Below are positions 18,284 to 40,140 of a stretch of 43,707 nucleotides of DNA, piece after piece (within the stretch, counting starts at the first letter, position 1; every line of letters starts with the position of its first letter). Origin of the DNA: a virus. The notes below the pieces were generated by a model. It did no database searches, was not told the DNA's origin, and saw nothing but the letters and a program-made list of their open reading frames with translations. The position numbers and the translations under genes are program-made. Where the stretch lies: IMG/VR virus record IMGVR_UViG_3300030060_006398, positions 7,256 through 50,962 of that record; one strand, given 5' to 3'.

Positions 18284-21200
18284 ATGAAAAAGAGTTCACC
18301 TTTAAAATACGATGCGCCAATGCAAGGTGGTAGTTCAACATATACACCTTTAGATACTAGCACTTCAACGGTAGCTTCGGATAGTTCATACGCTGCAAAA
18401 TCAAGGCCTTCTACCGGTGACTGTCCTGTTTTTCCAACGTTATGTAATCCTGTTTTTGTATTAGAAAAGCACATGTCCGTTATAAGAAAAGGACCTACTA
18501 TGCCACCTACACTTGAAATGCAAAGTGTTAAAGAAGAGACAGCTGCAGTATCTGGTGATCCAGCGAGAGGTAAAGTTAGTGCTAAATTTAGTGGTGAAAG
18601 AATGTGGGGTTCTTGGAACTTTTGTAACTTTCCACAACCTTGCAACGTTAGTTATTCACCTAACACAAGAGGTACAGCGTTTGACGCTGAAGATATAAGT
18701 TTGTTTTACCACCCAGATAAAACACATAAAAAACAAGGTGACAGACTTGTTATACCTATAGATATTAGTCAAACAGGTGAAGACTGGAGTGTAAATGATA
18801 AATTAAGAATAGAACACGAATACACTGATTCTTTAGGCTTTGTTAAAATAGCTGTAGCTACAGTTAGTATTGACGGTGTAGATTATATAGGTAAACCTTC
18901 TAGTGGTAGTACACTAACTGGTTATTCACAACTACCACAATTAGTAGCGCAAGGTTTAGCGCCTGGTGATTGTAACGGTATATGGGGTACTTACTCTGGT
19001 AATACTGATAGATACGTTTATACAACTATAATTACTATTACTGGTACTTTTCCTAAATATCCAGTAAAAGATGATTTTGGCATGCCTACTGGTGAAGATA
19101 TTTACAATGTAAATCTTATTCAGGATCCACCAATGTTTCAAAAGAAGTTTCCTAGATTTGCTTATAGATATAAATATGAAGATGGTGAATACTCTGTATA
19201 TTCGCCTTTTTCAGAAATAGCTTTTATACCAGAAACATTTGATTATCTACCTAAAAAAGGTTATAATCTAGGTATGGAAAACGCTTTAAGAACATTAAGA
19301 ATAAAAGATTTTATACCTAAAGATATACCAGAAGATGTTATACAAGTTGATATACTTTACAAAGAGTCAAACTCACCTAACGTGTATACTGTTACATCTG
19401 TAAAAAGAGATGATTTACCTCAAGATGGTTTATCAACAAAACCTTGGGAAACACCTGGTACTGGAGATAACTTCGGTAATTATAAAGTAAAATCAGAACT
19501 AATACATCAAGTCGTACCGTCAAATCAATTACTAAGACCTTGGGACAATGTTCCTAAAAGAGCAAGAGCACAAGAAATAACAGCTAATAGATTAATATAC
19601 GCAAACTACGTACAAAACTATAATGTTAAAGATAAGTTTAACGACACCGTTGTACCTAAGTTTTCTACAATGGTAGAGCAAATAGATCACTCTTTAAACA
19701 CTACAGCCGCTGCAGGCCCAAAACTAGGTGAACCTGCTAAGTCGTTAAAATCAATGAGAACATACCAGCTTGGTATTGTATATAGAGGTAGATATGGTAG
19801 AGAAACACCTGTACTAACAGATAAAACAGGATCTTTTAAAATTGATAAAGATTATGCTGTAACTCAAAATAGATTACAAGTACAAATGAATTCTAACCCA
19901 CCTTACTGGGCAGAGTCTTATACTTTCTACATAAAAGAAACTTCTAACGAATACTATAATTTAGCAATGGATCGTTGGTACGATGCAGAAGACGGTGGTA
20001 TATGGTTATCTTTTCCATCAGCTGAAAGAAATAAAATATCAGGACGTTTAGGAGATGAATCAACAACAACACTTATACTAAAGAAACAACATGATTCACA
20101 TGTGTTTACTGGTGAAAAAATAAGATACAAAGTTTTAGCAGTTCAAGATAATGCACCTACGTTTATAAAAACAGATCTTAAATATTGGGGCTCGCTACCT
20201 ATGTGTTTACCGCCTCCTGGTTGGGGTGATATTGGTAATTGGGATTCTGGTATGTTTTATCCATCAGGCCTTCCTTTACCTAACCGTATGTTTATTGATA
20301 TTATAGCTGAATATTGGGATCAGTCTGTAATGAGATCTTTAAGTGGTAGAGATGGTGCTCAAATAAGAGTAATACAAAGTGCTGGTCAAGCGTCTGCTTA
20401 CAACTCTGGTATGACAGATTCTACTAATAAATCAAACTGGTATAATGTTGCTAATATAGAGTATATTGGCGCTCCACCACAAACTTTTGAAGAGGCTATT
20501 GAAGATCCAGACACTGGTGTGGTAACAACAACTGAGGTTGAAGAATCTGGTGGTCCAGTTCAACTTGTTAGAGTTAGTTTAGAAAAAGCTTTTGGTGAAG
20601 ACGTTGGTTTTGCTAAACCAGAATACAATGATTATTTTAATCAACCATCTAACTCTATTTTAGATAAAGGCATATCAATAGAAGCAAGAACAAAAGATGT
20701 AAAAGATAAAGCTCAATTTGAAGGAAGATTTTTTGTAAAAGTATTAAGAGATTTTAATATAGAGCAAAACATTGTAAATCCTCAACAAGAGTTTTCTGAA
20801 AAATACCAAGTATTAGAAAGTAAAGATTTAAGATATATAGCTGCTGCTCATCCAGGTCTACAAGACTGGAACAATAGTTCTACTTATTTTGTAAGCATTG
20901 GTCAGGAAGATATAAGTTCATTTGGATTAGCTGGATCAAAGTTAGCTGAAGTTAGTAGTTTGTCAGAAATACATGCTAATAAAGGTTGTCATTATTTAGA
21001 TATTAGCGGCGCTGCTCAAGTAACACCTGCAGCTGGTGGTCCTGGTAATAGATGGCCTATGGGTCCTGGTGATCAAACAGATGGTACTTATGGACCGAAC
21101 GTTTCATCTTTTTACTGGGGAACAAAATACGCTGACTTTTTAGACAGTAGTAACGAGTGGCCAGATGAACAGCCTGTTAGCACACAGTATGATTGGCCTA

Positions 21201-24200
21201 GTTATGGTGTTGGTTCTTGGAATCCTTATATGTGTTATAATGATTGTGATGGTAGCGGTCAACCTGCAGCTGGTCAAATGTATGCTCACAATATAATTGG
21301 TAACACAACACCACATCCTTATCATTCTGGTACAACTCCTTCAACGTTAGGTTCAAGAAAAAGAGATGTTAGTAAAAATGGTATTGTACATTTGCACGAG
21401 GCTATAAGTTTTTTTGCAACACTACCCCTAAACAATTACGATCCAGGATCTACTTTTGGTAATGACCACTCTTATCTTGATGGTGCAAACCCTTATAATT
21501 TACCAGCTATATGGGGAGATCAAAGCGATTTACTAACAACACCTCCAGTTTGGAAGTCTGGTACAGCTGAAAAATTAAGAGAAGACTGGTATTATTTATG
21601 GAGAGGTAGAGATGTGAACAAAGATGAAAGATGGCCACTAGGTAGATTTCATCCTAATAGATGGATAATAGATAAAGCTGGTGCAGCTAAAGGTTATTCT
21701 GGTAATGGTGTTTGGGACGATGGTAACGTTGGCTATATGGATGTTTCTTATTGGGGTATAGGTAAAGAAACAGAATATAATAGAAAGCAAAACCACGCTG
21801 AATTATTTGGTCTTAATCACCCAACAGAAGTGTCTTTTGCTAACGCAATAAGTACAGTTGGTACTCAGTTTAGATTTAAACAAGATCCAGATCAAGTAGT
21901 TTATACTATAACAAATGTAGAAGTAAACGATAATGTTTGGAATTATGAAGTTTTTCATGGTGGATACGGAACAACTAACGACGATGGTAAGACATGGAAC
22001 GGAGGTAGTCAGTTAGGTAGAAAACATCCACCTGTATGGGGAGGTGAAGATGCAGATTCACCGCTTTACGGTGGTAAAGCTTTTATATCTGATTTATTTA
22101 GTAAATCTAAAAAACTAACTGGTGGAGCTCCATATAACAAAAGAATAAGATTTACATTAACATTAGATAAAATAGTAGGTAGAGAAGGTGGTTCAGGTTT
22201 TCATCCTATAACTAATCACGTAGACGCGGCTGGTGTTTCAAATATAAAGAGTGGTAGAGGTTATTATGCTACTGATTGCTCATCTGGTCATGTTACAACA
22301 GCTAAAGGTGGTACACCACCAAACCATGAGTTTTTTAATTTAAACAGCTATTGGAATGCAGCTGATAATGCTGGTGGTGGGTTTAGCTCACAGCCAGATG
22401 ATATTAGTGATACTTTTTACACAAATAATCCAGATGCTTATATTGGTTTACATGAAAGAGGATTAAACGAAACAACTATAGAGATTGTTACACCTTACAG
22501 AGGTGACGAAGGTGAAAGTGAAAGAATGAGTACTAATCCTGCTGTATGGGAAACAGAACCTTCAGAAGATGTTGGATTAGATATATACTATGCGGCTAGT
22601 CCTACGTACCCTGTAAAAATACAAAGATTTAGACAAGAAACAGATAAGTTATTTGATGCCTCTGGTTATCCTGATTACTATGGCGCTAATTGGTATGATT
22701 ATGGTCTTAGAGGTGAAGAAATAATACCTGTTGGCTCTGATTTTGAGCCATTAAATAATTCAATATCAACAGTTCCTGCCGCTGCTAAAATATGCGCGGT
22801 ACAAAACAATACTATATGGTTAAAACCAATAGCTGGTAGTGGTGTAGATTCTGCTTTTCAAGATGTAAATGGTAATGATATAAACATAGATTTAGGTTGT
22901 CAAATAAAAATATCACATCAAGGTGAAGGTACATATTATGGCGCTGCTTATGATAGAGAAGAAATATATCTTGAAGTAACAAAACAATTAGCTAAAAATG
23001 CTTATCAAGTAGAAATAAATACACATGCTGCAAAAAGACAATTAGGTTATTTTAATTGTTATTCATTTGGTAATGGTGTTGAATCTAACAGAATAAGAGA
23101 TGATTTTAATGCTGTTCAAATAGATAAGGGAGTTAAAGCTTCAGCACCTTTAGCAGAGCAGTATAAAGAAGAAAGAAAAGGTAGTGGCTTAATATTCTCT
23201 GGTATATACAATTCTACTAGTGGTATTAATAGAACTAATCAATTTATACAAGCAGAACCTATTACAAAAGATTTAAACCCTGTAAACGGTTCAATACAAA
23301 AACTACATACTAGAGATACAGACTTGTTAACGTTTTGTGAAAACAAAGTATTTAAAATATTAGCTAAAAAAGATGCTTTGTTTAATGCTGATGGCAATAC
23401 TAATGTAACTTCTAATCAAGCTGTTCTTGGACAAACAATACCATTTACAGGCGAGTATGGTATATCTAAAAATCCTGAGTCTTTTGCATCAGAATCATAT
23501 AGAGTTTATTTTGCTGATAAAGCAAGAGGAGCTGTATTAAGATTATCAAGAGATGGTTTAACTCCTATATCTGAAGCGGGTATGAGAGATTGGTTTAAAG
23601 ATAATTTAAGATTTGCATCTTCTATTATAGGTAGCTACGACGATAGAGAAGACCAATACAATATTACTGTAGAAACTAGAGATCAAGATGGTAATGACAA
23701 GGCTTATACTTTAAGCTGGGTTGAATCTAAAAAAGGTTGGGTTAGTTTTAAATCTTTTATACAACAAGGTGGTATTAGTCACAAAAACATTTACTACACT
23801 TTCCCTTCTAATAAATACAATTATAGAAATTATGAAGATCCATGGGGTGTTAATTATTATTCTCCTGGTCAAGGTAGAGCTGAAACATGGCAACATCATT
23901 TAGATTTAATTATAAAAAGAGATGTACAAATTTCTTCATCTTCAGCTAATAATATAATTGTTGTTTCAAACGGTTTAGGAACTTTAGTACCTGGTATGAA
24001 CGTAGAAGGAAATGGTATATATATAGATACTATAATAAACGAAGTAACTTGTACTGGTCAAACTTGTACTGTAAAATTAAACAAAGCTGCTTGGGTAGAA
24101 AATGGAAACGTTATAACTTTTACTACAGCAAGAAATAGTTTTTATGGTAACAATGAACATTATTCTTCTGTTAAAGTATTGTTTAACAAAGCACAGGGTA

Positions 24201-25891
24201 TTGTAAAAAGATTTAAAACGTTAGATTACGAGGGTACTCAAGCTAAAATAATACGAAGAGATAATAATAATCATATATTAGAAGGCCAAAATCTTGGTCA
24301 AATATACTACGATAACGTTGCTAAAAAAGGTTGGTATGTAGAAAATATGTTTACTGACATGCAAGAAGGTAGAGTACCTGAGTTTTTAGACAAAGAAAAC
24401 AAATGGTATAACTTTATTAGAGGTTACGAAGATGCTGGTAAACACGATGAAATAGATACTAGTGAGTTTTCATTACAAGGTTTAGGAAGAGCTGATGTTG
24501 GAGAAGAACCACCTCCGCCACCACCACCTCCACCACCGCCAAACTTCACATTTGATTGTATTGATGGTAATTGTAAAGTTAATCCTACTGGTAACGGTCA
24601 GTACAACGACTTAGCAACTTGTCAAGCTAATTGTGGTCAAGTACAGCCTTCATTTGACTGTGTTGATGGTGATTGTATAGATCCAGGTACTGGCATGGGT
24701 CAATACACAACATTAACAGATTGTGAAGATCAATGTGGTAATATTCCACAAACATGGGATTGTGTAGACGCAGGAACAAGTAACGCTCTCTGCGTAGAGC
24801 GATATGATGGTAGTGGACAATTTACTAACCTTGGTGATTGTTGGAACAACTGTAGTAATCAAGTTATATCATTCAACTGTGTATTGTATCCTGCAAATAC
24901 AGCCCCTGATTACTACACTGTAGATACTTATTTATGTGAAGATCCTGGTGATGGTAGTGGTACTTATACTAGTATGTCAGCTTGTCAAAATGCTTGCGTT
25001 GCACCTGAAGATACTTATGATTGTATAGCTGGTCAAGGATGTACTATTAATACAAATGGCACTGGTTTTTACACTGGACCTACAGCATTACAAGATTGTA
25101 CTGATGATTGTAATCATTATTGTGATTTATCTGCTGGTGGTTTAGGTTGTAATCAACAAGGCGTTGGTACTCACGTTGGCTCGTCTTGCGATCCAGCTAC
25201 TTGCAGACCTACGTCTAACAGTGAGACATATCATTTGTTCTGCCACTGGGATCAAGCAGGTAATTATGGTACATTGTATTATATTGATCAAACAACATTT
25301 GACAATCAATGTTTACCAGTGATTGGCCATGCGTCAGGACCTCAATTTAGTATAGATCCACAGTCTGCTTTTTATGTAGACTCAACTGGAGCTTGTTCTA
25401 GGTATATTGGCGCTTTAACTAATATGCCAACTCCTGTGGCAGGAGATTATATAACACAACCTGGTCCTTACAACAATCCGGTTACTTATTACTATGAGCC
25501 TACTGGTAATAATACTGGCTGTTTACTTCACCCTCATTACTCAAACCAAAACTATTACTTTGCTCCAACTCAAACTATGCCTAGTAGTTGTCAACAGTGT
25601 GATCCACTATTTGATCCTCCTAGTGGAGACGGAGGTTTTACTGATGGTCCTGAAGCTCTAGTACAACCTCCTCCATCTACAGACGGTAGATCTATTGATC
25701 CTGTTAAAGACAAAGGTAATTATAAAGGTGATACAGTTGTTGAAGTAAAAAATAAGCATCAAGTAACAGCAGAAATAAAACCTATAACGTTGGCTGAAGG
25801 ATCAATAACTAGAGAAACTGTTAGAAGAGATACAAGTAGTTTAAGGTCTTTTTCAGAAGATATTAACAGTGATAACCTAAGAACATATTAA
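18284..25891 (+). CDS. C-terminal half of split tail-hub protein with polyproline and Cys-rich array
   Basis: This 2535-residue protein starts MKKSSPLKYDAP (SPLK motif). The LEKHMSVIRKGP segment (about 59-71) normally continues the hub family begun in the previous gene. The core ends with RDWFKDNL, GSYDDREDQYNITV (from 1783), WQHH (1869-1872), TLDYEGTQA and GWYVENMFTDMQEG (from 2016). After a run of 11 prolines (2076-2086) comes an array of five Cys-rich units (2090-2276), then a 250-residue Cys/Pro-rich tail. Length greatly exceeds an ordinary hub. The structure implies tail-tip surface contact. The split could be a real two-subunit hub or a programmed frameshift; no obvious slippery site was found. 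Codon use is uniform with neighbours. Confidence 0.6.
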   Translation: MKKSSPLKYDAPMQGGSSTYTPLDTSTSTVASDSSYAAKSRPSTGDCPVFPTLCNPVFVLEKHMSVIRKGPTMPPTLEMQSVKEETAAVSGDPARGKVSAKFSGERMWGSWNFCNFPQPCNVSYSPNTRGTAFDAEDISLFYHPDKTHKKQGDRLVIPIDISQTGEDWSVNDKLRIEHEYTDSLGFVKIAVATVSIDGVDYIGKPSSGSTLTGYSQLPQLVAQGLAPGDCNGIWGTYSGNTDRYVYTTIITITGTFPKYPVKDDFGMPTGEDIYNVNLIQDPPMFQKKFPRFAYRYKYEDGEYSVYSPFSEIAFIPETFDYLPKKGYNLGMENALRTLRIKDFIPKDIPEDVIQVDILYKESNSPNVYTVTSVKRDDLPQDGLSTKPWETPGTGDNFGNYKVKSELIHQVVPSNQLLRPWDNVPKRARAQEITANRLIYANYVQNYNVKDKFNDTVVPKFSTMVEQIDHSLNTTAAAGPKLGEPAKSLKSMRTYQLGIVYRGRYGRETPVLTDKTGSFKIDKDYAVTQNRLQVQMNSNPPYWAESYTFYIKETSNEYYNLAMDRWYDAEDGGIWLSFPSAERNKISGRLGDESTTTLILKKQHDSHVFTGEKIRYKVLAVQDNAPTFIKTDLKYWGSLPMCLPPPGWGDIGNWDSGMFYPSGLPLPNRMFIDIIAEYWDQSVMRSLSGRDGAQIRVIQSAGQASAYNSGMTDSTNKSNWYNVANIEYIGAPPQTFEEAIEDPDTGVVTTTEVEESGGPVQLVRVSLEKAFGEDVGFAKPEYNDYFNQPSNSILDKGISIEARTKDVKDKAQFEGRFFVKVLRDFNIEQNIVNPQQEFSEKYQVLESKDLRYIAAAHPGLQDWNNSSTYFVSIGQEDISSFGLAGSKLAEVSSLSEIHANKGCHYLDISGAAQVTPAAGGPGNRWPMGPGDQTDGTYGPNVSSFYWGTKYADFLDSSNEWPDEQPVSTQYDWPSYGVGSWNPYMCYNDCDGSGQPAAGQMYAHNIIGNTTPHPYHSGTTPSTLGSRKRDVSKNGIVHLHEAISFFATLPLNNYDPGSTFGNDHSYLDGANPYNLPAIWGDQSDLLTTPPVWKSGTAEKLREDWYYLWRGRDVNKDERWPLGRFHPNRWIIDKAGAAKGYSGNGVWDDGNVGYMDVSYWGIGKETEYNRKQNHAELFGLNHPTEVSFANAISTVGTQFRFKQDPDQVVYTITNVEVNDNVWNYEVFHGGYGTTNDDGKTWNGGSQLGRKHPPVWGGEDADSPLYGGKAFISDLFSKSKKLTGGAPYNKRIRFTLTLDKIVGREGGSGFHPITNHVDAAGVSNIKSGRGYYATDCSSGHVTTAKGGTPPNHEFFNLNSYWNAADNAGGGFSSQPDDISDTFYTNNPDAYIGLHERGLNETTIEIVTPYRGDEGESERMSTNPAVWETEPSEDVGLDIYYAASPTYPVKIQRFRQETDKLFDASGYPDYYGANWYDYGLRGEEIIPVGSDFEPLNNSISTVPAAAKICAVQNNTIWLKPIAGSGVDSAFQDVNGNDINIDLGCQIKISHQGEGTYYGAAYDREEIYLEVTKQLAKNAYQVEINTHAAKRQLGYFNCYSFGNGVESNRIRDDFNAVQIDKGVKASAPLAEQYKEERKGSGLIFSGIYNSTSGINRTNQFIQAEPITKDLNPVNGSIQKLHTRDTDLLTFCENKVFKILAKKDALFNADGNTNVTSNQAVLGQTIPFTGEYGISKNPESFASESYRVYFADKARGAVLRLSRDGLTPISEAGMRDWFKDNLRFASSIIGSYDDREDQYNITVETRDQDGNDKAYTLSWVESKKGWVSFKSFIQQGGISHKNIYYTFPSNKYNYRNYEDPWGVNYYSPGQGRAETWQHHLDLIIKRDVQISSSSANNIIVVSNGLGTLVPGMNVEGNGIYIDTIINEVTCTGQTCTVKLNKAAWVENGNVITFTTARNSFYGNNEHYSSVKVLFNKAQGIVKRFKTLDYEGTQAKIIRRDNNNHILEGQNLGQIYYDNVAKKGWYVENMFTDMQEGRVPEFLDKENKWYNFIRGYEDAGKHDEIDTSEFSLQGLGRADVGEEPPPPPPPPPPPNFTFDCIDGNCKVNPTGNGQYNDLATCQANCGQVQPSFDCVDGDCIDPGTGMGQYTTLTDCEDQCGNIPQTWDCVDAGTSNALCVERYDGSGQFTNLGDCWNNCSNQVISFNCVLYPANTAPDYYTVDTYLCEDPGDGSGTYTSMSACQNACVAPEDTYDCIAGQGCTINTNGTGFYTGPTALQDCTDDCNHYCDLSAGGLGCNQQGVGTHVGSSCDPATCRPTSNSETYHLFCHWDQAGNYGTLYYIDQTTFDNQCLPVIGHASGPQFSIDPQSAFYVDSTGACSRYIGALTNMPTPVAGDYITQPGPYNNPVTYYYEPTGNNTGCLLHPHYSNQNYYFAPTQTMPSSCQQCDPLFDPPSGDGGFTDGPEALVQPPPSTDGRSIDPVKDKGNYKGDTVVEVKNKHQVTAEIKPITLAEGSITRETVRRDTSSLRSFSEDINSDNLRTY
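24509..24541 (+). repeat. Eleven-proline run (hub linker)
   Basis: Eleven consecutive CCN codons encode prolines 2076-2086. A stiff polyproline II linker would hold the following Cys-rich array away from the hub. Such a run also needs efficient EF-P-assisted translation. Confidence 0.9.
24551..25111 (+). repeat. Array of five Cys-rich units (DCxxGxC ... CxxxC)
   Basis: Residues 2090-2276 hold five related units of about 28-40 residues, such as FDCIDGNCKVN ... LATCQANC and FDCVDGDCID ... DCEDQC. Each has four cysteines in the order C-x4-6-C ... C-x3-C, except that unit 4 has a longer gap between the first two. Units diverge in spacing, so they are old duplications. A copy also sits at the end of the preceding gene (902-929). 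Confidence 0.75.
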
Positions 25892-27855: not shown

Positions 27856-28830
27856 ATGTTAGATAAAAACGGTAATAAATTATTGAAACCATCTCCTCTT
27901 AAAATTTTTAAGAAGGTTGGTCGATTTTTATTTGGAGATAATAGAGACAAGAAAGAGGCTGCTGGTAAGCTAAAGAAGCAACAAGAAGCTCTTAATAAAA
28001 TGACGGAAGACTTTTCTAAGATTGACACGTCAAATCCATTTAAAAACGCTGAAAATGCTTTTGCAGGTTTAGAAAATAAAATGTCTAACTTAGACAATGT
28101 ATATGATAAAGCAGAAAATGTTTACGAAGGTAAAATGGACAATGCTTTTGAAGGACAGAAAAATGCTTATGCCGGCATGAAGAATAAGTTTGAAGACATG
28201 GAAAATGCCTTTGAAGATCTTACCGTCAACACACAACAAGCTGAGTTTGAAGCTCAACAAAATCAACAGAACCAAGCAAACATAATGGCACAAATGAGTG
28301 GTGCTGCCGGTGGTTCTGGTATTGCAGCGCTAGCACAATCTATGGCAAATCAAGGTGCTTTACAAGCACAAAAAGCCTCTGCTAGTATTGGTGCTCAAGA
28401 AGCGCAGAATCAAAAAATGGCTGCTCAAGCTGAAGAAAAAATTAACATGGCTACTGCTGAAGAAGGTTCTAAAATTCAAATGGCACAAGCTGGTGAACAG
28501 TCAAGACTTGATACTCAAAAACGTCAAGCTGACATGGATATACAAAATAAAGTTCTTGATGCTGATAACGCTTTACAGTCACAAAGATTAGGTGAAGCGT
28601 CTAAACTACAAATGGCAGAAGCGCAGCAAGCTAGTAACTTACAAATGGCAGAAGCACAAGGGGAAATGGATGTGCAAAAGTTAAAAGGTGATGGTGCAAT
28701 GTGGTCTGCTGGTCAAGAAATGGAAAAACAAAAAACAGTTATGAATATGCAGATGAATAAAATGAAAGTAACTGGTTCTGAAGCAAACGCTCCTAGAGAC
28801 AAAGGTTTCCTTGGAAGTTTATTTGGTTAA
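27856..28830 (+). CDS. Internal virion / ejection-type protein with helical repeats
   Basis: This 324-residue protein starts with LLKPSPLKIFKK (the SPLK motif) and is otherwise Ala/Gln/Lys/Glu-rich helix. Residues 55-125 contain repeated N-A-[FY]-x-G units (NAFAGLENKM, NAFEGQKNAYAGMKNKF). A segment SGIAALAQSMANQGALQAQKAS follows; I recall it as common in internal virion proteins of marine podoviruses. The second half is a Gln-rich coiled coil ending FLGSLFG. It probably assembles inside the head and enters the host with the DNA, as T7 gp14 does. A chaperone-like or scaffold role is an alternative. No catalytic motif or true membrane segment was seen. Confidence 0.65.
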   Translation: MLDKNGNKLLKPSPLKIFKKVGRFLFGDNRDKKEAAGKLKKQQEALNKMTEDFSKIDTSNPFKNAENAFAGLENKMSNLDNVYDKAENVYEGKMDNAFEGQKNAYAGMKNKFEDMENAFEDLTVNTQQAEFEAQQNQQNQANIMAQMSGAAGGSGIAALAQSMANQGALQAQKASASIGAQEAQNQKMAAQAEEKINMATAEEGSKIQMAQAGEQSRLDTQKRQADMDIQNKVLDADNALQSQRLGEASKLQMAEAQQASNLQMAEAQGEMDVQKLKGDGAMWSAGQEMEKQKTVMNMQMNKMKVTGSEANAPRDKGFLGSLFG

Positions 28831-28853: not shown

Positions 28854-30245
28854 ATGAATGGTAATAACGCTAATTTAGGAAAACAAGCTCAAGAAAAAAA
28901 TCAAAAAAATCAAGGTATGATATCCGCTGGTATGGATATATTATCTGAAGCAAAAAGAAGATTAGCTTGGGAAGAAGTACAGCAAGAAGCTTTGTCTATA
29001 GAGCCAGAGCAAATGCAAATTAGAAAAGCTATAGACCAACAATTAAGACATAATCAAAAAGAAATGTTAGGTAGAAAAGGTATTATAGATGAACCTGGTA
29101 TTGATGGTGTTGGTAATGCTGATGTTTTTAAAGCGTCTTTGTTCAAACAATTAAAAGAAATGAACGACAGAATGTATGACGCTATACAAATGGAAGATGA
29201 TGAAGAGCAAGAGATGTTAAAAACTAAATTAGCTACATTAAAAACGAACATGGATAGATTTAGAGAAGAAACTCAACAGTTTTTTGAAGATCATTTTTCA
29301 CCAGATAATTTTTTATCTAAGTCATGTTCACAGCAGCAGTTGAGCTACGGTACTCAGATATATTGTAAAAACCCTGATATAAAAATGGTACACGCTACAA
29401 AAACAGATGTACTACAAGGTGAAAGAGATGCTTATGGTAAGCCTGTTGTAGAAGATCAATGTTATGCTATTGTACAAAACATGAAAGGTGAGTTTGTAAT
29501 GGTAGATGTTATACAAGGAAACAAAGACATGTATCTTGTTGATATTACTAAAGCTATGGAATACTTAGGTTATATACAAAAATATTCTGATCAAGCAGCT
29601 CAAGCTAGACAATCTAAAAATGTAACAAAAATAGATTTAGGAGCTATAAACTATAATATAGACCAATTCTTTGGTAGTAATGACGGTACAGCAAACAAAA
29701 CACAAGACAGATTAGTTTTACAGTTTGCATGGGATACACACTTGTTAAAAGATGGTAGTAGTTTTAGAAGACATTTATATGAGCACCCAAAAATTGAAAA
29801 CCTAAACTATGGTGAGTTTGATTTTGAGTCAATGGAGTTTAGTGCACCACTAGGTCCTGGTGATGAAAACTATTGGTATGATAATATAGATGGGCAAGAT
29901 AAGTTAAGAATGGTAGATGCTATTTGTAATCAAGATAATCCTTTCTTTGATATAAAACTATTAAGAACATTAGTAAAAGAATATTACACTTATAGAATAG
30001 AAAATACTTGGTGGAAATCAATGGGCTATGATGAAGGTAGATTAGAAATAATGAGGTTAAAACAAAACGAGCTTAGAGCTCAAAGATTTAAAATGGCTAA
30101 AGCAGAAGCTGCTCAAAAAGGTCAAGAACAGTTTACTTTTGATGGTAAGATAATGGAAACTGGAATTAATGTTGAAAAACAAAGAAAAGAACAAGAGGAA
30201 AACATAAGGGATAAAAATCCTAAACCTATAACTCCAATACAATAA
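28854..30245 (+). CDS. Probable internal virion protein, function unknown
   Basis: This is a 463-residue protein. A charged helical N-terminus (KRRLAWEEVQQEALSI) leads to a helical region (LFKQLKEMNDRMYDAIQME). It continues into a globular middle (about 150-370) with aspartate-rich turns, and the C-terminal helix is basic (KQNELRAQRFKMAKAEAAQ). It lies between the SPLK-bearing ejection-type protein and the giant polyvalent protein, in the ejection module. The function is unknown; position suggests a packaged component that partners the giant protein. It has no signal peptide, zinc motif or nucleotide-binding motif. Confidence 0.55.
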   Translation: MNGNNANLGKQAQEKNQKNQGMISAGMDILSEAKRRLAWEEVQQEALSIEPEQMQIRKAIDQQLRHNQKEMLGRKGIIDEPGIDGVGNADVFKASLFKQLKEMNDRMYDAIQMEDDEEQEMLKTKLATLKTNMDRFREETQQFFEDHFSPDNFLSKSCSQQQLSYGTQIYCKNPDIKMVHATKTDVLQGERDAYGKPVVEDQCYAIVQNMKGEFVMVDVIQGNKDMYLVDITKAMEYLGYIQKYSDQAAQARQSKNVTKIDLGAINYNIDQFFGSNDGTANKTQDRLVLQFAWDTHLLKDGSSFRRHLYEHPKIENLNYGEFDFESMEFSAPLGPGDENYWYDNIDGQDKLRMVDAICNQDNPFFDIKLLRTLVKEYYTYRIENTWWKSMGYDEGRLEIMRLKQNELRAQRFKMAKAEAAQKGQEQFTFDGKIMETGINVEKQRKEQEENIRDKNPKPITPIQ

Positions 30246-30246: not shown

Positions 30247-33200
30247 ATGCGTAAACCTTCTCCTTTAAAACATAAAGAAGCGGCAAACGAGCCTTTACAC
30301 ACTACTCTTACAGACAAAGAGCACCAAGAACTGCATAATAAAAGTAACGTTCATGAGTCTGAAGATAAGAATATAATAGACCAAAAAGAGCAAGATCAAA
30401 AAGAATCTAGAACTAAAGGCACTGATATAAATGTTTTGTATGATAATTACTTAGACAACCCTGAGGTTATAACAAAAGACGAGCTTCATGAAGGCGATAT
30501 GTTTGATGATGCTGAAGATCGTATGGTTATCAACCTTAGAAATAATAAGACTGTAAAAAATCTTAATATAAAAGTTGAAGGTCCTGATGATGATGACAGT
30601 TTAGATAGAGTTGGTAGACATGACCATGTTAGATTAACAAATGAATATGGAAGAACTCTTCTTATTAGAAAAGACGATCCTAACTATTTAGATAAAATAA
30701 ATACGTTTGCAAAACTAACAAGAGGTACTAGACTTAGAACTGCTGTTGATGAAGCAGAGAAAAATGGTGGTACTATTGATAAGACTATTCCTGTTATTAG
30801 AAATGGTAGACCTGTAAAATGGAAAGACGTAACTAAAGAAGGTAACGAACAACTATATAATAGTCTTACAGAAGGAGAAAAACTAAGACTAGCAGATCAA
30901 GAAACAATTACAGGTTTTGAAACTACATTGTTAAATTTAAAAAACAACAACAATAGGTTAAAAGACGAAACTACAAAAAACGGTATTACAAAAGAAGTAT
31001 ACGAAGCTGGTAGAAAAAAAGGTGAGTACAATAATTATAAGTACAACTTTAATACTGGTTTGTATGAAGAAGTTAAAGATAATGGACCTGTAGTAACAAA
31101 TATAAAAGCTGAGAAAAAAGAAAAAGAAGATCAAGGCGATTACGTTAACACAACAGCTAATGATGGTAAGTCTTACAAAAATAGAAAGTCTTATATAAAA
31201 GACGAAAAAATAAAAAACGAATCAAAGGTACTTAGAGAAATTAGTTATAATGAAGGTCGTGAACCTGGCGAGTACTTTCAAACAAAACAAGAGTGGCTTG
31301 ACTATAAACAACAACAAGCAATAGAAGGTGGACCCGCAGGTATGTTAGGCTATGATCCTGAAGCTTTAGAAAAAGAGTGGAACGAATTAGTTGCTAAAGA
31401 AGAAAGTAAAAATACTCAACTTGTAAATGCAAAAAACAAACAAGCTGAAAACGAACAAGTATTAGACGAAATACTGTCTGCAGAGACTAATGACGACTGG
31501 AGATCAATGTTTTTTAACTTTGGTGAAAATGAAAATCTAGACTTTGGTATGTTAGACGATCAAGTTAGAGAGGCTATATTAGACATTGTTAACGATCAAC
31601 AATACAAAGCTGCTCAATCAAAAGGTATTGGAGGTACAAGTATAGGAGAGGGAACTTTAGATTTTATAACTGGTTTAAATTTAAAAGAAAAAGAAGATAT
31701 ATTAAGGCAAGCTAGAACTATTGTTTTTCAAAACAACGCAGATAAAATACTAAAAGAAGATGCTGAGTATCAACGTGAACAAGAAGATTACTTAGAAGAA
31801 GTTTCAAAGTTTAACACTGAAGCAGATTTAGTAACGCAAGGTATAGAAGAAAACACACAAGCGCTTAAAGAAGGTGGATATATAGATAGAGTAAATGTTT
31901 TAAATCAAGAACGTGAAGATCTTGAAACAGACTTTAGAGCATTACAAGTAAAGTTTAATGAGATAGGTGATGTTGATGAAAACTCTTCCAAAGAAGAAAT
32001 AGAAGCTTACAATTTACTGGTTGCTGAGTTTAACAAACTAAAAGTAAGAGATGACGCTTTACAAAACAACGAGCTAAACAAAGATCCTGAGTATCAAGCT
32101 TTAATAAAAAAAGGTCAAGACTTAGAAAGAAGAAGAGAAGCCTTAATAGCAAAACAACCCGTTATAGATGCTCAAAAAACACAACTAGATCAATTTGCTA
32201 CAGCACATAATGCTTTTAAAGAAACTGTGTTTTCAGAGTTAGGTTATAGCGTTATGGATAATAGTTTTGAAAACGCTTTTGAAAGAACAGAAGAGATAAA
32301 CAATTTTAAAAACCATCTTGTTGATAACCACGGCACTTTAGGTAAAATTATGGATGTTGGCCTTACGTTTGCTGATGGTATGTTAAAAATGCAAGCGTTT
32401 AATAAGATGTTAAAAAACCCTTATGTATTGTCAATAGTTGGTGGAGCTGCTGCAGGTGGTAACTTAAGAGAGATGGTAGAAGGAAAAGAGATTTATGGTT
32501 TAGATGATGTTATATTTGATGGTCTTGCTAATTTTTCTAAAGCAGAAATATTCCCTACGTCTGAAGATGAATCAGGTAATATAACAACTGGTAAACAAAC
32601 TTTTACTTTTAATGGCAAAGAGATAGTTGCATCATCACCACAAGAGGCTTTAGAAAAAGCTAAGAAAATAGATGATACAGCTACACTAGAAGATATACAA
32701 GCTAAAAAAGGTATTGGTGCTTTTTTTGATGGAGCAGCGTGGAATATAAACGGTTACTCTGCTGGAAAGACTATAGCTGAGATGCTACCTTATTCTTTGA
32801 TTATAGCTAGAGAACTACCAAAAAAATTAACTGTTGCAGCTAGAAGAAAAATGGTTCAAGGTGGTGCTAATATAAAAAACAAGCAAGGTGTAAAATCTTT
32901 AAATGCTAAAACAATATTAGGTACTATAAACAATAAATACTTATTGTCTGATAAAGGTAGACAAGCTATGTCTATGGTTAAGGCTACGTATAGAGTTCAG
33001 TATGTAGAAGAAATGGCACAAGCAAAGAGTTTAGGTTTAACAGGTGTACAACAACATGCTTATGCAAATGGTATGACGCTAGCAACTGGTATAGCTCAAT
33101 CAATCATGCCTGATTCTAACTTTTTTGGTAGAGGCGCTGGTAAAAAATTATTACAAGATTTTACAGAAAACCTAAGTAAAACAGCTACAAGGGCTGGTAT

Positions 33201-36200
33201 GAAAAAAGCTACTAATACGTTTTTTAAAAATCTAGCATTAGAAATTGGTGAAGAAGAAGTTGAACTTGTAATGAGAGATATAGTTAGCTCTTCTATGCTA
33301 GCTAGTCATAGTCCTGAGTTTTTTGACATGGAAGTTCAAAGACAAACTCTAATGGGCACATTGTTATTATCTGGTAGTATGGGTAGTGTCGGTGTTAAAA
33401 ATGATTACGAAGCAACTAGAGACAGAGTATATGCTGAATTTAAAGAAAAAGGTTACAATGCTATAAAAGATATAGACACTGATATAGAAGTAACTGATAA
33501 AAAAATAAAAGAGTTAGAAAAGAAAAACGACAAAGTATCTATTGAAACAAGTGAAAACTTAAAAGAAGCTAAAAAAGAACTAGAAGCAGCTAGACAAGAT
33601 GCTATAGATATTGTTACAGCTATTAATGTTTCACCAAAAAGCGTAACAAACGATCAAATAGAAAATATTGTTAAGAAACAAAAGTTAATGAAAGAAAAAG
33701 AAGGTAAAGATCCTTCTGCTATAAAAGATATAAACGATCAAATAAAAGTACTTAACAATAAAATAGAAAACTCTACAGTAAAACAAAACCAAGAGTATAT
33801 ATACGAAAAGCTATTAAAAAACTCTATGAAAATATCTAAAGGTTTAGGTATAAAGTTTAATGAGTCTAGACAAAAAGGATATGAAACAGCTGTTACAAAA
33901 GAAGATGCAAGAAGAAAAGAATATAACGAAGCAAATGGTTTAAATCCTAAAGATAAAAATTATAGAAAGCCTGTAAATAAAGACGCGCCTGGTTTTATAA
34001 CTGATATAGGTGATGGTCAGCAAATGATATTTATTAACAAAGACAATGCTAAAAAGAATAGAAATTTTGCTGTAGCTCAACACGAGTTATTACATGGTGT
34101 GTTAACAGAAACTTTTAAGAAAAACCCAAAAGCAATAACAGGTTTGTCAAAAGCATTAAGAGGTCATTTAACTAAAGACAAAATGTTTAGTAATTATGTT
34201 GACGCTAAGATGAGGTCTTATGAAGGTATACAATCTATTGAAAAAGATGAAGAGCTATTAGCTGTTGTTTCTGAAGCTATAACACAAGGTCATTTAAAAT
34301 ACGACTCAGGTTTTATGAGCAAGATCGGTGACGGTCTTAGAGCTGTTGCTAGAGAGTTTGGTTATAACTTTAAAATAAAAGATGGCAGAGATGTTTATAA
34401 TTTCCTTAGAGATTATAACAAAGAAGTTTCAAGAGGTAGACTTAGTAGAGGTATGAACAGAATAGCAATACAAGGATTTAAAAAAGGTGATATTGCTGAT
34501 ACTTTATTAGAGGAGCAGGACGCTAACGTACAAGAACCTGCTAGAGAAGAAGATGATAGTGTTAGACAAATGGAGTCTTTACCTATATATCAAAGAGTCG
34601 ATAAGATATATACTGATAATAAAGCTGATTGGAAAGATGAGTTTAAAAAGAAAAGACTAGCTCAACAAATGGCTTATGAGTTTGAAGGAAATGTTATAGA
34701 TAGGCTTAAAGATTTAAAAGGATTTGGTAAAGAAGAAAAACAAGATATAGCTTTAGACTTTATAACCTCACAAACAAGAGGTTTGGCTGGAGTTATAGAA
34801 GGTTTTGATCAAGATAGACTTATTAATAAGAAAACAGGTGAGCCTTACGAAAGTGTTAGTGCTTATTTACTACATACTTTACCTAGTGGTAAGTCTTTAT
34901 TAGACGCTAGGTTAATGGAGTTTTATCAAAACGATCCTAAATACTCTAATATAATACAGTCTTTATCTGAAGAGGCAACTCAGAAAAAATTTGAAAAAGA
35001 ACAAAAGCAAGGTATATCTGGTACACGACAAGAAAAAGAAGCCATAAGATTTAAAATAGCAGATAGACTTGGTCCAAAAGCTAAATCTGTAGCTAAAAAA
35101 GTAAGATCAATAATATCAACAACAGATGCAAACGGTAACACTGTATTAAAACCAGAGTATAGAGGTAAAAATATAAAAGAATTAAGAGGTGTTGTTTTAT
35201 CAGAAGTGCAAGAACTATTTGGTATAAAACCAAAGCCTGGTAACTTAACAGCGCCTGATATTAAAAACGCTCAATTTTATATTGCTAAAAATGCACCAGC
35301 GTTATGGTTGATGCTACCAGAAGGTTACACAGAAGGTGGTACGTCTACAGGTGTAACATCTGTTTTAATGACAGAAAGACCTACAAAGAAAAACAAACTA
35401 AAAGAAATACAAGATGTATTTTATACTAAGAGCGTTGTAGCTAAAGCAAAAAGAGATTCTAAAACAGGAGAGTTAATTGTAGAAGAAAAAGCTAAAAGAC
35501 CAGTTAACTTAGAAGTTCAAAAGAAGAGAACTGATATTAGCATGGCTGATTTTAAATCTGTGTTTGGTATAACAGAACGTGGTGAACAAAATCTTTATAA
35601 GAAAGAAACTAATACTAGCTCCAGAATAAGAGCTTTAGTTTCTGAAACAGAGCGAATGATAGTTAATCAAGTAGCTAGAGAGATTGATCCTACACAAGCA
35701 ATGCTGGCAGACGGTATAAGCAGATCAATGTATTCAAATGCGTTTAATAATTTAGATGTACAAGTTCAAGCAGATATATTTAGAGGTTTAGATGCTGTAG
35801 ATACAAAGCTTAACGTTATAGATATAACAAATGAAGATGAAGTTAATAGAGTACTAGACGAAGCTTTTGCTGGTGTAGATAAAAAGATAATAAACAAAAT
35901 TAAAAAAGATATAGGTTTAGGTGTAAGAGGAGCTAAACTAGGAGCATATAGACAGTATAAGAAAACATTAAACGCTTATGAAGCGTCTGGTAAAACTTAT
36001 GACATGTCTTTAATACAAAAAATAGCACAGAACTTTAGAAAAGCTATAGTAGATGCAGAAAAGAATTTAGCTAATACATTAGGTGTTAAATCTTGGAACG
36101 GTAAACCAGCAACAAAAGCAAATCTGTTTCAGTCTAACGAAGAAAGTGCAAACTTGATAAATACAGCTAGACAAGACATTACATCACAAGTAGCAGAAAT

Positions 36201-39200
36201 GAAAGCAGAGGTTGACGCTGGTACTATGACAGAGTTTGAGTTTTTGAAAAACATTGTTTTAATGAACGGTATGTACGCTCAAGCTTCTAAAATGAGTGAT
36301 GGAAGATTTAGTAACGACGAGCCTGGTGGTAAAGTTTATTATAACAAAAAAAATAAAATAGGTGGACAAAGAGGTCAAGTTGTTAATAACGCGGCTGATT
36401 GGGTTGCGCTTGTTAATGCTGCTAGTAGTGATGTTATATTACCTACAAATGAAAAAGGTTTAATAGATAAAAAAGCTTTAGTTGCAAAATATGGTTTTGA
36501 TCCTAAGCTATTAAAAGATAAGTCTGTTGATGTTTTAAGTGAAATTGAAATAGACAGTGATGGTAACATGACGTTAACAACAGAAGCTGCTAGAGAAGAA
36601 CAAGCAATGCTAGCTAGAAAACTAGTTAAACGACAATTACAACATTGGCAAAACAGAATAAATGACGATACCGATGCTTTTAGCGAGGTTGATATGTTAA
36701 TGCAATTTTATAGTATGATGAGTGGTATGGAGACGCCACTTAGAAAAGGAGCTATGATATATGGTATTGCTGATGGTGCTATGAATATTCCTAAAACAAA
36801 ACAAGGTAAAGATTTAGAATACGATCATGCTAAACCAGCGCATGAGGTTATGAATAGAATAGCTAACATTGTTGCAAACAACCCACAATCAAGATGGGAT
36901 AAAGAAATAGATAAAGTATTTGCAGACTACATAGTTAATATAATACCTAAAAAAATGGATACAGCTGTTAAAGAACAAGGAAGACAGTCTGTAGTACAAG
37001 AAGGATATGTTGATGGTGATAATACTTTTACGCAAATAATGGCAAGACTATTTGCGGCAGATACTAGGTATCATCCTGAAATGGTGCCAATAACAAGTAT
37101 TAGTTCTAAAGATAAAGGTAGACGTTGGGGTGAATCGTTTGTTGCTTTAAGAGATAATATCTTAACAGAAACTCCAGCTAGAATAATGCAGTCTAGAAAA
37201 ATTAACGATGCTATTAAGTTAAACAGACAAGGACGTGTTAATCCTAGAGGTATGTCTACTTTTGATTTTGATGAAACGTTAATAGATAAAGGTGAAAACT
37301 TTATTATAGCTAAGAAAGGAGATGAAGAAGTTAAGATTAGTTCTGGTCAATGGCCAATACAAGGACCAAAGTATGCAGAACAAGGATATGATTTTGACTT
37401 TAGCGATTTTACAAATGTAAGAGGTGGTATTGAAGGACCACTATTACAAAAAATGCGTAATCAAATTAAAAAGTTTGGACCTAAAAATGTATTTGTTTTA
37501 ACAGCAAGACCTCAGGAAAGCGCATCAGCAATACACGCTTGGTTAGAATCAAAGAATATAAAGATACCTTTAAAAAATATAACTGGTTTAGGTAATAGTA
37601 CTGGCGAGGCAAAAGCTGTTTGGATGTTAGAAAAGTTTTCAGAAGGATATAATGACATGTATTTTGTTGATGATGCTTTACCTAATGTTGAAGCTGTTAA
37701 AAATGTGTTAGATCAACTAGATATTAAATCTAAGGTTAGACAAGTTAGAACAATGGAAAGCGCAGCTTTAAACGAAGACTTTAATATTATACTAGAACAA
37801 GCGTCTGGTGTTGGTAGAGAAAAAAGGTTTTCACAAGCAAAAGCTGAACTAAGAGGTAAACGTAAGGGTAGATTTAAGTTTTTTATTCCAGCGTCAGCAG
37901 AAGACTTTAATGGCTTATTATATGCTATGTTGCCTAAAGGTAAAAGAGGAGAAAAGGCTTATGAGTTTTTTAAGAAAAATTTATTAGATCCGTTTGCTAG
38001 AGGTGTAAATGAATTAAACGCTGCTAAGCAAAGAATAGGTGATGATTACAAAGCTTTAAGAAGAGCAATGCCAGATGTTCGTAAAAAGTTATCTAAAAAA
38101 ATAACTGGTCAAAAAGATTTTAGATATGCTGATGCTGTAAGAGTTTATTTATGGGACAAGGCTGGCTATACTGTTCCAGGTCTTTCAGAAGCAGATAGAA
38201 AAAATTTAATTGATACTGTTATAAAAGATGAAAGACTACAATCATTTGCAGATGCTTTAGGCTTGATATCAGCAAGACCAGAAGGTTATACTGAACCACA
38301 AGAGTATTGGTTAGCTACAAATATACTAGGTGATTTAAGTGATGCTGTTGATAAAATAGGTAGAAAAGAATTTTTAGCTGACTGGATACAAAATAAAAAT
38401 GAAATATTTACTGAAGAAAACTTAAATAAACTACAAGCCGTTTATGGTCCTAAATATGTAGAGGCACTAAGAGATATACTTTACAGAATGGAAAACGGTA
38501 CTAACAGACAAGAGCGTACTAGTAGATTAGTAAATGCTTTTCAAAACTGGGTTAACAACTCTGTTGGTGCTATCATGTTCTTTAACGCAAGATCTGCTTT
38601 ACTTCAAACGTTATCTTCTGTTAACTTTATAAATTGGGGTGATAATAATATATTAAAAGCTGGTAAAGCTTTTGCTAATCAACGACAGTTCTGGAAAGAC
38701 TTTGCAACATTGTTTAACTCTGATATGTTAAAACAAAGACGTAAAGGTTTAAAAACAGATGTTAATTACGCTGAACTAACAGAAAGTGTAGGTAGATCAA
38801 AAAATCCTGCAATGGCTGCTTTGAATTATTTATTACAAAAAGGTTTTTTACCTACGCAAATTGCTGATAGTTTTGCAATAGCTAGTGGTGGTTCTACGTT
38901 TTATAGAAATAGAATAAACACATACTTAAAACAAGGTATGACACAAAAGCAAGCTGAAGAAACAGCGTTTAAAGATTTTCAGCAAATAGCAGAAGCAACA
39001 CAACAGTCTTCTAGACCTGATATGATTTCACAGCAACAAGCCTCACCATTAGGTAGGTTAATACTTGCTTTTCAAAACACACCTATGCAGTATATGCGTT
39101 TAACTAAAAGAGCCATGCAAGATCTAGCTGCAGGACGTGGCGATTGGAAAACACATGTGTCAAAAATATTGTATTACGGTGCTATTCAAAATTTAATATT

Positions 39201-40140
39201 TATGTCTTTACAGTCCGCATTGTTTGCTTTAGCATTTGATGATGACGAAGAAGATGAAGAACAAAAAGCAAAAGACAAAGAAAAGAAACAAGTAAGAATA
39301 CTAAACGGTATGCTTGATAGTATATTAAGAGGTATGGGTATTGGTGGTGCTGTGGTTGCTACTGTAAAAAACATGTTAATAAAAATTGGTGAAGAAGAAC
39401 AAAAAGACTGGAATAAAGATTTTGATAATGTAGTTATTGAAGGTTTACAACTATCACCACCAATAGGATCAAAGGTTAGAAAACTTAGAAGCGCTGGTAA
39501 GTCTTATGATTACAACGAAGAGGTTATAAAAAGAATGAATAAGTTTGATATAGAAAATCCACTTTACGAAGTTATTGGTAACATTGTATCGGCAACTACT
39601 AACATACCTTTAGATAGAGTTGTTAATAAAACTAAAAACATAAAACAAGCTCTTAACGATCAAAATGAAGCTTGGCAAAGAGTTGCTCTTATACTTGGTT
39701 GGCAAAGATGGGATCTTGGTATGGGTAAACCAGAAGAGGTTGAAATAGTAAGACAAGAAATAAAAGAAGAAAAGAAAGCTGCTAGAAAAGAAAAAGCTAG
39801 AATAAAAAGAGAAGAAAAGAAAAAGCAGCAAGAGATAGAAAACCAAAAGTTAATTGAAGAGAATATTAAGAAACAAGAGGAAGAAAGAAAAAAGTTAGAA
39901 GAAGAAAATAAAAACAAACCAAAAGAAGAAAAGAAAGAAGTTACTTGTGCTGCTGTAAACAAACATGGCAAGCGTTGTGGTAATAAAGTTGTGCCGGGTA
40001 AAAAGTTCTGTACTATTCACGAAAAGGTAGAACAAAGAAAAGATGGTGCTAAATCTCAATGCAAAGCTATTAAATCTAATGGCAAAAGATGTAAGATGCA
40101 AACCTCTTCAAAAAGTGGCTATTGTTATTACCATGATTAA
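30247..40140 (+). CDS. Giant 3297-residue polyvalent ejection-type protein (metallopeptidase, HAD, zinc-finger domains)
   Basis: The protein begins RKPSPLKH and is mostly helical and charged. A zinc-metallopeptidase motif HELLH lies at 1279-1283. A complete HAD phosphatase fold follows near 2340: nucleophile motif FDFDET (D2340, D2342), LTARP (T2419), K2456 and FVDD (D2475/D2476). A hydrophobic segment lies at 2979-2997. The end carries two zinc-binding motifs, C3234/C3244/C3255/H3258 and C3272/C3282/C3293/H3296, after a charged coiled coil. Large multi-domain phage proteins are usually ejected with the genome (polyvalent type, as described for T7-like gp16 analogues). It probably crosses the host envelope and acts on host targets. 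The start is ATG two bases after the previous stop. No transglycosylase motif was identified. Confidence 0.75.
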   Translation: MRKPSPLKHKEAANEPLHTTLTDKEHQELHNKSNVHESEDKNIIDQKEQDQKESRTKGTDINVLYDNYLDNPEVITKDELHEGDMFDDAEDRMVINLRNNKTVKNLNIKVEGPDDDDSLDRVGRHDHVRLTNEYGRTLLIRKDDPNYLDKINTFAKLTRGTRLRTAVDEAEKNGGTIDKTIPVIRNGRPVKWKDVTKEGNEQLYNSLTEGEKLRLADQETITGFETTLLNLKNNNNRLKDETTKNGITKEVYEAGRKKGEYNNYKYNFNTGLYEEVKDNGPVVTNIKAEKKEKEDQGDYVNTTANDGKSYKNRKSYIKDEKIKNESKVLREISYNEGREPGEYFQTKQEWLDYKQQQAIEGGPAGMLGYDPEALEKEWNELVAKEESKNTQLVNAKNKQAENEQVLDEILSAETNDDWRSMFFNFGENENLDFGMLDDQVREAILDIVNDQQYKAAQSKGIGGTSIGEGTLDFITGLNLKEKEDILRQARTIVFQNNADKILKEDAEYQREQEDYLEEVSKFNTEADLVTQGIEENTQALKEGGYIDRVNVLNQEREDLETDFRALQVKFNEIGDVDENSSKEEIEAYNLLVAEFNKLKVRDDALQNNELNKDPEYQALIKKGQDLERRREALIAKQPVIDAQKTQLDQFATAHNAFKETVFSELGYSVMDNSFENAFERTEEINNFKNHLVDNHGTLGKIMDVGLTFADGMLKMQAFNKMLKNPYVLSIVGGAAAGGNLREMVEGKEIYGLDDVIFDGLANFSKAEIFPTSEDESGNITTGKQTFTFNGKEIVASSPQEALEKAKKIDDTATLEDIQAKKGIGAFFDGAAWNINGYSAGKTIAEMLPYSLIIARELPKKLTVAARRKMVQGGANIKNKQGVKSLNAKTILGTINNKYLLSDKGRQAMSMVKATYRVQYVEEMAQAKSLGLTGVQQHAYANGMTLATGIAQSIMPDSNFFGRGAGKKLLQDFTENLSKTATRAGMKKATNTFFKNLALEIGEEEVELVMRDIVSSSMLASHSPEFFDMEVQRQTLMGTLLLSGSMGSVGVKNDYEATRDRVYAEFKEKGYNAIKDIDTDIEVTDKKIKELEKKNDKVSIETSENLKEAKKELEAARQDAIDIVTAINVSPKSVTNDQIENIVKKQKLMKEKEGKDPSAIKDINDQIKVLNNKIENSTVKQNQEYIYEKLLKNSMKISKGLGIKFNESRQKGYETAVTKEDARRKEYNEANGLNPKDKNYRKPVNKDAPGFITDIGDGQQMIFINKDNAKKNRNFAVAQHELLHGVLTETFKKNPKAITGLSKALRGHLTKDKMFSNYVDAKMRSYEGIQSIEKDEELLAVVSEAITQGHLKYDSGFMSKIGDGLRAVAREFGYNFKIKDGRDVYNFLRDYNKEVSRGRLSRGMNRIAIQGFKKGDIADTLLEEQDANVQEPAREEDDSVRQMESLPIYQRVDKIYTDNKADWKDEFKKKRLAQQMAYEFEGNVIDRLKDLKGFGKEEKQDIALDFITSQTRGLAGVIEGFDQDRLINKKTGEPYESVSAYLLHTLPSGKSLLDARLMEFYQNDPKYSNIIQSLSEEATQKKFEKEQKQGISGTRQEKEAIRFKIADRLGPKAKSVAKKVRSIISTTDANGNTVLKPEYRGKNIKELRGVVLSEVQELFGIKPKPGNLTAPDIKNAQFYIAKNAPALWLMLPEGYTEGGTSTGVTSVLMTERPTKKNKLKEIQDVFYTKSVVAKAKRDSKTGELIVEEKAKRPVNLEVQKKRTDISMADFKSVFGITERGEQNLYKKETNTSSRIRALVSETERMIVNQVAREIDPTQAMLADGISRSMYSNAFNNLDVQVQADIFRGLDAVDTKLNVIDITNEDEVNRVLDEAFAGVDKKIINKIKKDIGLGVRGAKLGAYRQYKKTLNAYEASGKTYDMSLIQKIAQNFRKAIVDAEKNLANTLGVKSWNGKPATKANLFQSNEESANLINTARQDITSQVAEMKAEVDAGTMTEFEFLKNIVLMNGMYAQASKMSDGRFSNDEPGGKVYYNKKNKIGGQRGQVVNNAADWVALVNAASSDVILPTNEKGLIDKKALVAKYGFDPKLLKDKSVDVLSEIEIDSDGNMTLTTEAAREEQAMLARKLVKRQLQHWQNRINDDTDAFSEVDMLMQFYSMMSGMETPLRKGAMIYGIADGAMNIPKTKQGKDLEYDHAKPAHEVMNRIANIVANNPQSRWDKEIDKVFADYIVNIIPKKMDTAVKEQGRQSVVQEGYVDGDNTFTQIMARLFAADTRYHPEMVPITSISSKDKGRRWGESFVALRDNILTETPARIMQSRKINDAIKLNRQGRVNPRGMSTFDFDETLIDKGENFIIAKKGDEEVKISSGQWPIQGPKYAEQGYDFDFSDFTNVRGGIEGPLLQKMRNQIKKFGPKNVFVLTARPQESASAIHAWLESKNIKIPLKNITGLGNSTGEAKAVWMLEKFSEGYNDMYFVDDALPNVEAVKNVLDQLDIKSKVRQVRTMESAALNEDFNIILEQASGVGREKRFSQAKAELRGKRKGRFKFFIPASAEDFNGLLYAMLPKGKRGEKAYEFFKKNLLDPFARGVNELNAAKQRIGDDYKALRRAMPDVRKKLSKKITGQKDFRYADAVRVYLWDKAGYTVPGLSEADRKNLIDTVIKDERLQSFADALGLISARPEGYTEPQEYWLATNILGDLSDAVDKIGRKEFLADWIQNKNEIFTEENLNKLQAVYGPKYVEALRDILYRMENGTNRQERTSRLVNAFQNWVNNSVGAIMFFNARSALLQTLSSVNFINWGDNNILKAGKAFANQRQFWKDFATLFNSDMLKQRRKGLKTDVNYAELTESVGRSKNPAMAALNYLLQKGFLPTQIADSFAIASGGSTFYRNRINTYLKQGMTQKQAEETAFKDFQQIAEATQQSSRPDMISQQQASPLGRLILAFQNTPMQYMRLTKRAMQDLAAGRGDWKTHVSKILYYGAIQNLIFMSLQSALFALAFDDDEEDEEQKAKDKEKKQVRILNGMLDSILRGMGIGGAVVATVKNMLIKIGEEEQKDWNKDFDNVVIEGLQLSPPIGSKVRKLRSAGKSYDYNEEVIKRMNKFDIENPLYEVIGNIVSATTNIPLDRVVNKTKNIKQALNDQNEAWQRVALILGWQRWDLGMGKPEEVEIVRQEIKEEKKAARKEKARIKREEKKKQQEIENQKLIEENIKKQEEERKKLEEENKNKPKEEKKEVTCAAVNKHGKRCGNKVVPGKKFCTIHEKVEQRKDGAKSQCKAIKSNGKRCKMQTSSKSGYCYYHD

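Follow-up and report, generated by a model that had tools for sequence, protein, structure and literature searches.

The locus described here raises the question of what a phage uses a single 3,297-residue protein for, and whether the protease, phosphatase and zinc modules initially read into it are genuine. The window, i.e. the whole 43,707-nucleotide stretch that was analysed, comes from a virus record of 50,962 bases. The giant protein is encoded by one uninterrupted, ATG-started open reading frame (ORF) at 30247-40140(+), which contains no internal stop and occupies 22.6% of the window, so the claim of a single giant gene filling over a fifth of the window is confirmed. Its placement after virion genes is also borne out: the giant is the last gene of a crAss-like virion block that runs in the order terminase, portal, structural proteins, two muzzle-like genes, several small genes, giant.

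4754..9381 (+): terminase large subunit and portal (phrog_6681, 1e-170; phrog_6547, 7e-151)
15358..25891 (+): two muzzle-like tail proteins, 974 and 2,535 aa (crAss_MUZ, 2e-6; crAss_MUZ_C, 1.7e-4; phrog_14478, 1.9e-108)
27856..28830 (+): probable internal virion protein, 324 aa, with SPLK at aa 13; conserved neighbour
28854..30245 (+): 463-aa protein directly upstream of the giant, a probable partner
30247..40140 (+): polyvalent giant protein gene, 3,297 aa (ORF plus homologues)

The window terminase shares 65% identity with its counterpart in an uncultured Manatee Spring podovirus and 32-45% with those of Flavobacterium elemo, Cellulophaga and Tenacibaculum phages. Judged by this protein, the phage carrying the giant is podovirus-like and its nearest cultured relatives infect Flavobacteriia. 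The surroundings of the giant are conserved, with homologues of the gene two places upstream in 114 loci and of the gene directly downstream in 83 loci. The downstream gene (40190-41281), whose homologues adjoin giants in those 83 loci, starts with a lipoprotein-like signal peptide (MKKLLILLATILMACS). The muzzle-like genes at 15358-18282 and 18284-25891 adjoin and correspond to the N-terminal and C-terminal portions of a single muzzle-type family (crAss_MUZ, phrog_14478), as though one gene had been divided. Elsewhere in the window, an ORF of 125 aa at 1099-1476 has weak matches to Peptidase_M91 (0.001) and eCIS_core (0.008), and the protein at 41934-42311 matches DUF6321 (3.9e-21) and several phrog families of unknown function.

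Sequence searches of Pfam, PHROGs, NCBIfam and PDB with the whole protein gave nothing beyond the terminal zinc units, and tblastn with the 3,297-residue query against 50,697 phage records gave no match. Searches with the C-terminal and HAD sections yielded 149 and 226 confirmed candidate stretches, respectively, and 80 loci were kept from each. From these loci, 137 distinct complete giants were read, nearly all in marine IMG/VR contigs; close homologues of the window giant all come from metagenomic contigs. Complete giants are 2,135 to 4,311 aa long (a split gene in locus L097 excepted) and share a collinear order: a variable N-terminus, a zincin domain, a variable middle, a HAD domain, a helical C-terminal domain of ~650 aa and an optional CCCH part. 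Conservation is limited to the two enzyme domains and the C-terminal part. In the window giant, the parts are as follows.

30247..33813 (+): N-terminal part (aa 1-1189), variable and charged; no homologues are detected over most of it, with almost no coverage ahead of aa ~1150
30259..30270 (+): SPLK N-terminal peptide (aa 5-8)
33814..34506 (+): zincin-like metallopeptidase domain (aa 1190-1420), from alignment, invariant residues and a weak Peptidase_M78 match
34081..34095 (+): HELLH metal-binding motif, residues 1279-1283; E1336, the third ligand, is encoded at 34252-34254
34507..37197 (+): variable middle part (aa 1421-2317); over the zincin-middle alignment, homologues are 11-25% identical to the window giant
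37198..37746 (+): HAD phosphatase domain (aa 2318-2500) with complete catalytic residues; DUF2608/HAD-clan, fold nearest MDP-1
37744..39756 (+): conserved all-helical C-terminal domain, the family core (aa 2500-3170); model pLDDT 80.6, BFVD matches
39181..39237 (+): moderately hydrophobic helix (aa 2979-2997), mean Kyte-Doolittle 1.56
39946..40020 (+): CCCH zinc-binding-like unit 1 (aa 3234-3258), spacing C-x9-C-x10-C-x2-H
40060..40134 (+): CCCH zinc-binding-like unit 2 (aa 3272-3296), spacing C-x9-C-x10-C-x2-H

A set without bias for the enzymes is provided by 70 giants chosen by the C-terminal domain alone. HExxH is present in 69/70 of them, the strict HAD motif I pattern in 48/70 and motif IV in 54/70, the latter two counts being low because the patterns are narrow. 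By profile, a HAD domain is found in 126/137 complete giants and none is detected in the other 11/137, so the domain is not essential to the scaffold.

Several departures from the common layout were seen. The first ~50 aa of the homologues (L084-L243) fall into several unrelated, interchangeable types, one of which resembles the N-terminus of the giant in MW202828. The idea that these N-terminal modules are tags common to other virion proteins was rejected, for they have only one non-giant match, an adjacent ORF with the appearance of the lost front part of the shortened L101 giant. In L097, the gene is in two pieces (4280-7699 and 7715-11890) with the break separating the zincin part from the HAD-C-terminal part, which, if the assembly is right, suggests that each half can function on its own. 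Three kinase-bearing giants (L264, L275, L278) have frame breaks early in the C-terminal domain that may reflect a frameshift, a gene split or an assembly error.

The peptidase motif reported initially is present at residues 1279-1283. About 0.02 HExxH motifs would be expected from the composition of the giant, and the H, E and H together with a downstream Glu (E1336) are invariant in 60/60 aligned homologues and 122/122 HMM-aligned matches. Zincins carry HExxH with a third Glu ligand on a following helix, and the model of the giant has helices at the site. The AlphaFold model of the zincin-middle region is of mixed confidence (pLDDT 71.5, pTM 0.43), and a PDB fold search with it gave no significant match. 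The conserved HExxH...E arrangement is strong evidence that the site is functional; at the level of sequence, the zincin active site is intact.

The HAD domain was likewise annotated correctly as intact. Its motifs are D2340-F-D-E-T, L-T2419-A-R, the Lys of GEAKA (2453-2457) and V-D-D-A (2474-2477), and 113/114 homologues that cover the seven catalytic residues (D, D, T, T, K, D, D) have the canonical one at every position. DUF2608, which we take to be a family of the HAD clan, is matched in 26/29 members (best 1.7e-5). The model is Rossmann-like, and its nearest PDB folds are MDP-1, Ceg4 and Lem4; the MDP-1 match has a probability of 0.99 and an E-value of 0.12, the best of the PDB E-values, which are not significant alone. 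The domain thus combines DxDxT, a motif II T/S, the Lys and the DD of a HAD phosphatase on a Rossmann-like fold. As judged from these residues the phosphatase site is intact, and phosphatase activity would be expected of it. In bacterial genomes, the HAD profile finds only nine metagenome-assembled contigs, which are probably viral sequence.

Within the giant family, identity over the C-terminal ~650 aa is about 50%. By sequence, this domain has no convincing match in Pfam or the PDB, LPD models included, and one weak, unnamed match in PHROGs (3e-4). Its AlphaFold model retrieves four close family members and then more than 50 viral proteins (E 6e-14 to 1e-3), mostly giants. Several of these fold matches, with E-values of 1e-13 to 1e-4, are annotated as large polyvalent protein-associated, ART-PolyVal or MuF-C proteins or, in one case, as the structural protein of Gundel_1. 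The hydrophobic segment noted in the initial annotation exists (aa 2979-2997) and lies within a predicted helix of this domain. It is weakly hydrophobic and not conserved, a comparable stretch scoring above 1.6 in 6/114 homologues; with so few homologues as hydrophobic there, the name transmembrane segment is unwarranted, and that reading was dropped. The two terminal CCCH motifs are where they were claimed to be, at 3234-3258 and 3272-3296. Their match to Pfam DUF5763 (E 7e-5) scores 22.7 bits, below the cut-off of 26.3, so the pattern is similar and falls short of membership. Terminal CCCH parts occur in 43 of 137 complete giants.

The SPLK peptide at residues 5-8 is real and is not specific to the giant. 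In residues 2-25 of 1,630 nonredundant proteins from the giant loci, SPLK was observed 22 times, where the remaining sequence of these proteins predicts 0.55; observed and expected counts are 19 and 0.5 for SPFK and 13 and 0.6 for SPMK. SP[LFM]K is found on many unrelated protein clusters and on only a few giants; it is strongest on the second gene upstream of the giant (27/140 versus 0.1 expected). The carriers of SPLK in the window are the 2,535-aa muzzle-like protein (18284), the 324-aa protein (27856) and the giant (30247). Variants are seen at 340-1095 (PAPLK) and 41934-42311 (SPFK). SP[LFM]K possibly serves these viruses as a signal for sorting or packaging.

Taken together, the zincin, HAD and CCCH units lie in a single ORF, which gives at least two unrelated activities in one polypeptide, and they do so in a portal- and terminase-encoding phage among virion-gene neighbours. 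Among 18 relatives scanned, two contain LPD14 and one a glucosaminidase. The Pfam LPD models do not match the window giant, and a resemblance to LPD38 was not supported, since neither the giant nor the C-terminal-domain members match Pfam LPD38. The fold, HMM and LPD14 links nevertheless place the giant among polyvalent proteins, although it has no LPD match itself. The initial description of a polyvalent protein with protease, phosphatase and zinc modules is therefore supported, with both active sites conserved family-wide and links to known polyvalent proteins through fold and LPD14.

The reading that we consider the most probable, with some reserve, is that the giant serves a podovirus-like phage as a polyvalent cargo protein, with a helical core, a self-cleaving zincin, a HAD cargo enzyme and a CCCH pair. 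The conserved helical C-terminal domain would be the structural core that places the giant among internal virion proteins. The giant would be packaged and ejected with the DNA, which fits its position at the end of the virion block and its annotated relatives, and it may counter host defences. The zincin probably processes its own polypeptide: most likely it would cleave the giant in the capsid or after entry and release working pieces. HAD would be the constant cargo enzyme, dephosphorylating a substrate in the freshly infected host; a nucleic-acid end or a nucleotide is weakly favoured as that substrate because relatives insert a polynucleotide-kinase/zeta-like kinase. Zinc binding is probable for the CCCH pair, which may also contact DNA.

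Alternatively, the giant could be mainly a structural ejection protein that forms a helical conduit for DNA entry (like T7 gp16 or crAss gp45), its zincin being an assembly maturation protease only and HAD a passenger. This account, which we regard as unlikely, draws on the mostly helical prediction for the giant, on its position as the last gene of the virion block after the muzzle and small internal-protein-like genes, and on a core domain that is universal while HAD is sometimes missing; it is at odds with a HAD active site that is strictly conserved wherever present and with relatives that add enzyme modules (kinase, glucosaminidase), as effector-type polyvalent proteins do. The size and position of the giant also resemble those of cargo RNA polymerases, but a virion RNA polymerase like N4 vRNAP or the crAss RNAP subunits is hardly credible: no RNAP match was found in Pfam, PHROGs or the PDB, and the catalytic motif DxDGD, presumably the signature of the crAss-type RNAP, is present in only 10/137 homologues and absent from the window giant, which largely refutes this reading.

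A further alternative concerns the HAD domain itself, which in some relatives (L103, L139, L146, L150 and L154, from two sublineages) is interrupted between motifs I and II by a P-loop kinase of ~190 aa. HAD could be an end-healing 3'-phosphatase, with the nested domain as the 5'-kinase, that repairs nucleic acid cut by host defence. The best PDB matches of the kinase point this way: a single-sequence search gives the CthPnkp kinase at 6e-4 (the entry listed as 'Metallophosphoesterase', which we take to be the Clostridium thermocellum Pnkp 5'-kinase), and T4 Pnk follows at 0.05. An ATP-dependent DNA ligase gene, present in most relatives tested, is also in its favour. The same kinase, however, matches zeta toxin (Pfam Zeta_toxin 4e-11, alongside AAA_33 at 7e-17; PDB 9e-4 by profile), and the T4 Pnkp phosphatase is not significantly related to the HAD profile (PseT; probability 9.9%). 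A kinase scan found 26 loci (L256-L281), all with the kinase inside giants and mostly nested in HAD; it can instead directly follow the zincin (L276/L278) or occur where no HAD is detected (L272/L273), and this varied position marks it as a mobile module. The window giant lacks the kinase and so is no T4-type polynucleotide kinase-phosphatase. Nesting fits a kinase-phosphatase without proving one, and we hold the end-healing role to be improbable.

Equally doubtful is the scenario in which a virion-delivered, nested kinase-in-phosphatase repairs host RNA or the incoming genome during the first minutes of infection, the zincin freeing the enzyme from its carrier. Neither RtcB nor a T4 Rnl1-type ligase was found in the 20 records searched (the Rnl1 search having no positive control), and the PF09414 matches overlap the DNA ligase; RNA repair thus failed the co-occurrence test. 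The proposed 'takeover or anti-defence' function, of which RNA repair was one version, found no direct support, and no substrate or partner turned up. The kinase-in-HAD relatives do offer a concrete hypothesis for the HAD substrate, and the conserved, expressible phosphatase and protease pair under our preferred polyvalent cargo reading provides a test of what giant injected proteins do.

The giant family, common in marine viral contigs, is large and mostly undescribed, and it belongs to the already known "polyvalent protein" kind (Iyer et al. 2017, PMC5512222). Polyvalent proteins are likewise multi-domain giants that join a zincin-like metallopeptidase to other enzymes in portal/terminase phages with virion-gene neighbours, and LPD14 and glucosaminidase recur in relatives of the window giant. 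Unlike them, its C-terminal core has no convincing Pfam LPD match by sequence, and the main text of PMC5512222 makes no mention of a HAD phosphatase as the near-constant component that it is here. Closest to the core is gp74 of Tenacibaculum phage Gundel_1 (Pachyviridae), labelled 'structural protein' in GenBank, which shares the C-terminal domain by HMM (33 bits) and fold and has an HEFGH zincin site; in it, no HAD but a weak GNAT match is detected, and its gene precedes the terminase. Flavobacterium phage elemo gp18 (3,694 aa; found by the zincin HMM at 34.5 bits) and the MW202828 giant (3,859 aa) are zincin-bearing and likewise last in the virion block, but have no detected HAD and no significant BLAST similarity to the window giant. 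The crAss001 cargo proteins (gp45-gp50) are also large and stored in the virion, where cargo amounts to about 5.5 MDa in cargo zones (PMC10172136), and muzzle-type tail genes are found in the window as well; that cargo includes an RNA polymerase, whereas none is detected in the window giant. Phage P1 DdrB and the phage N4 virion RNA polymerase, too, are large packaged proteins with a zincin domain, joined to partner domains that differ from those of the window giant; DdrB is cleaved prior to packaging, and N4 vRNAP enters the virion intact (PMC5512222).
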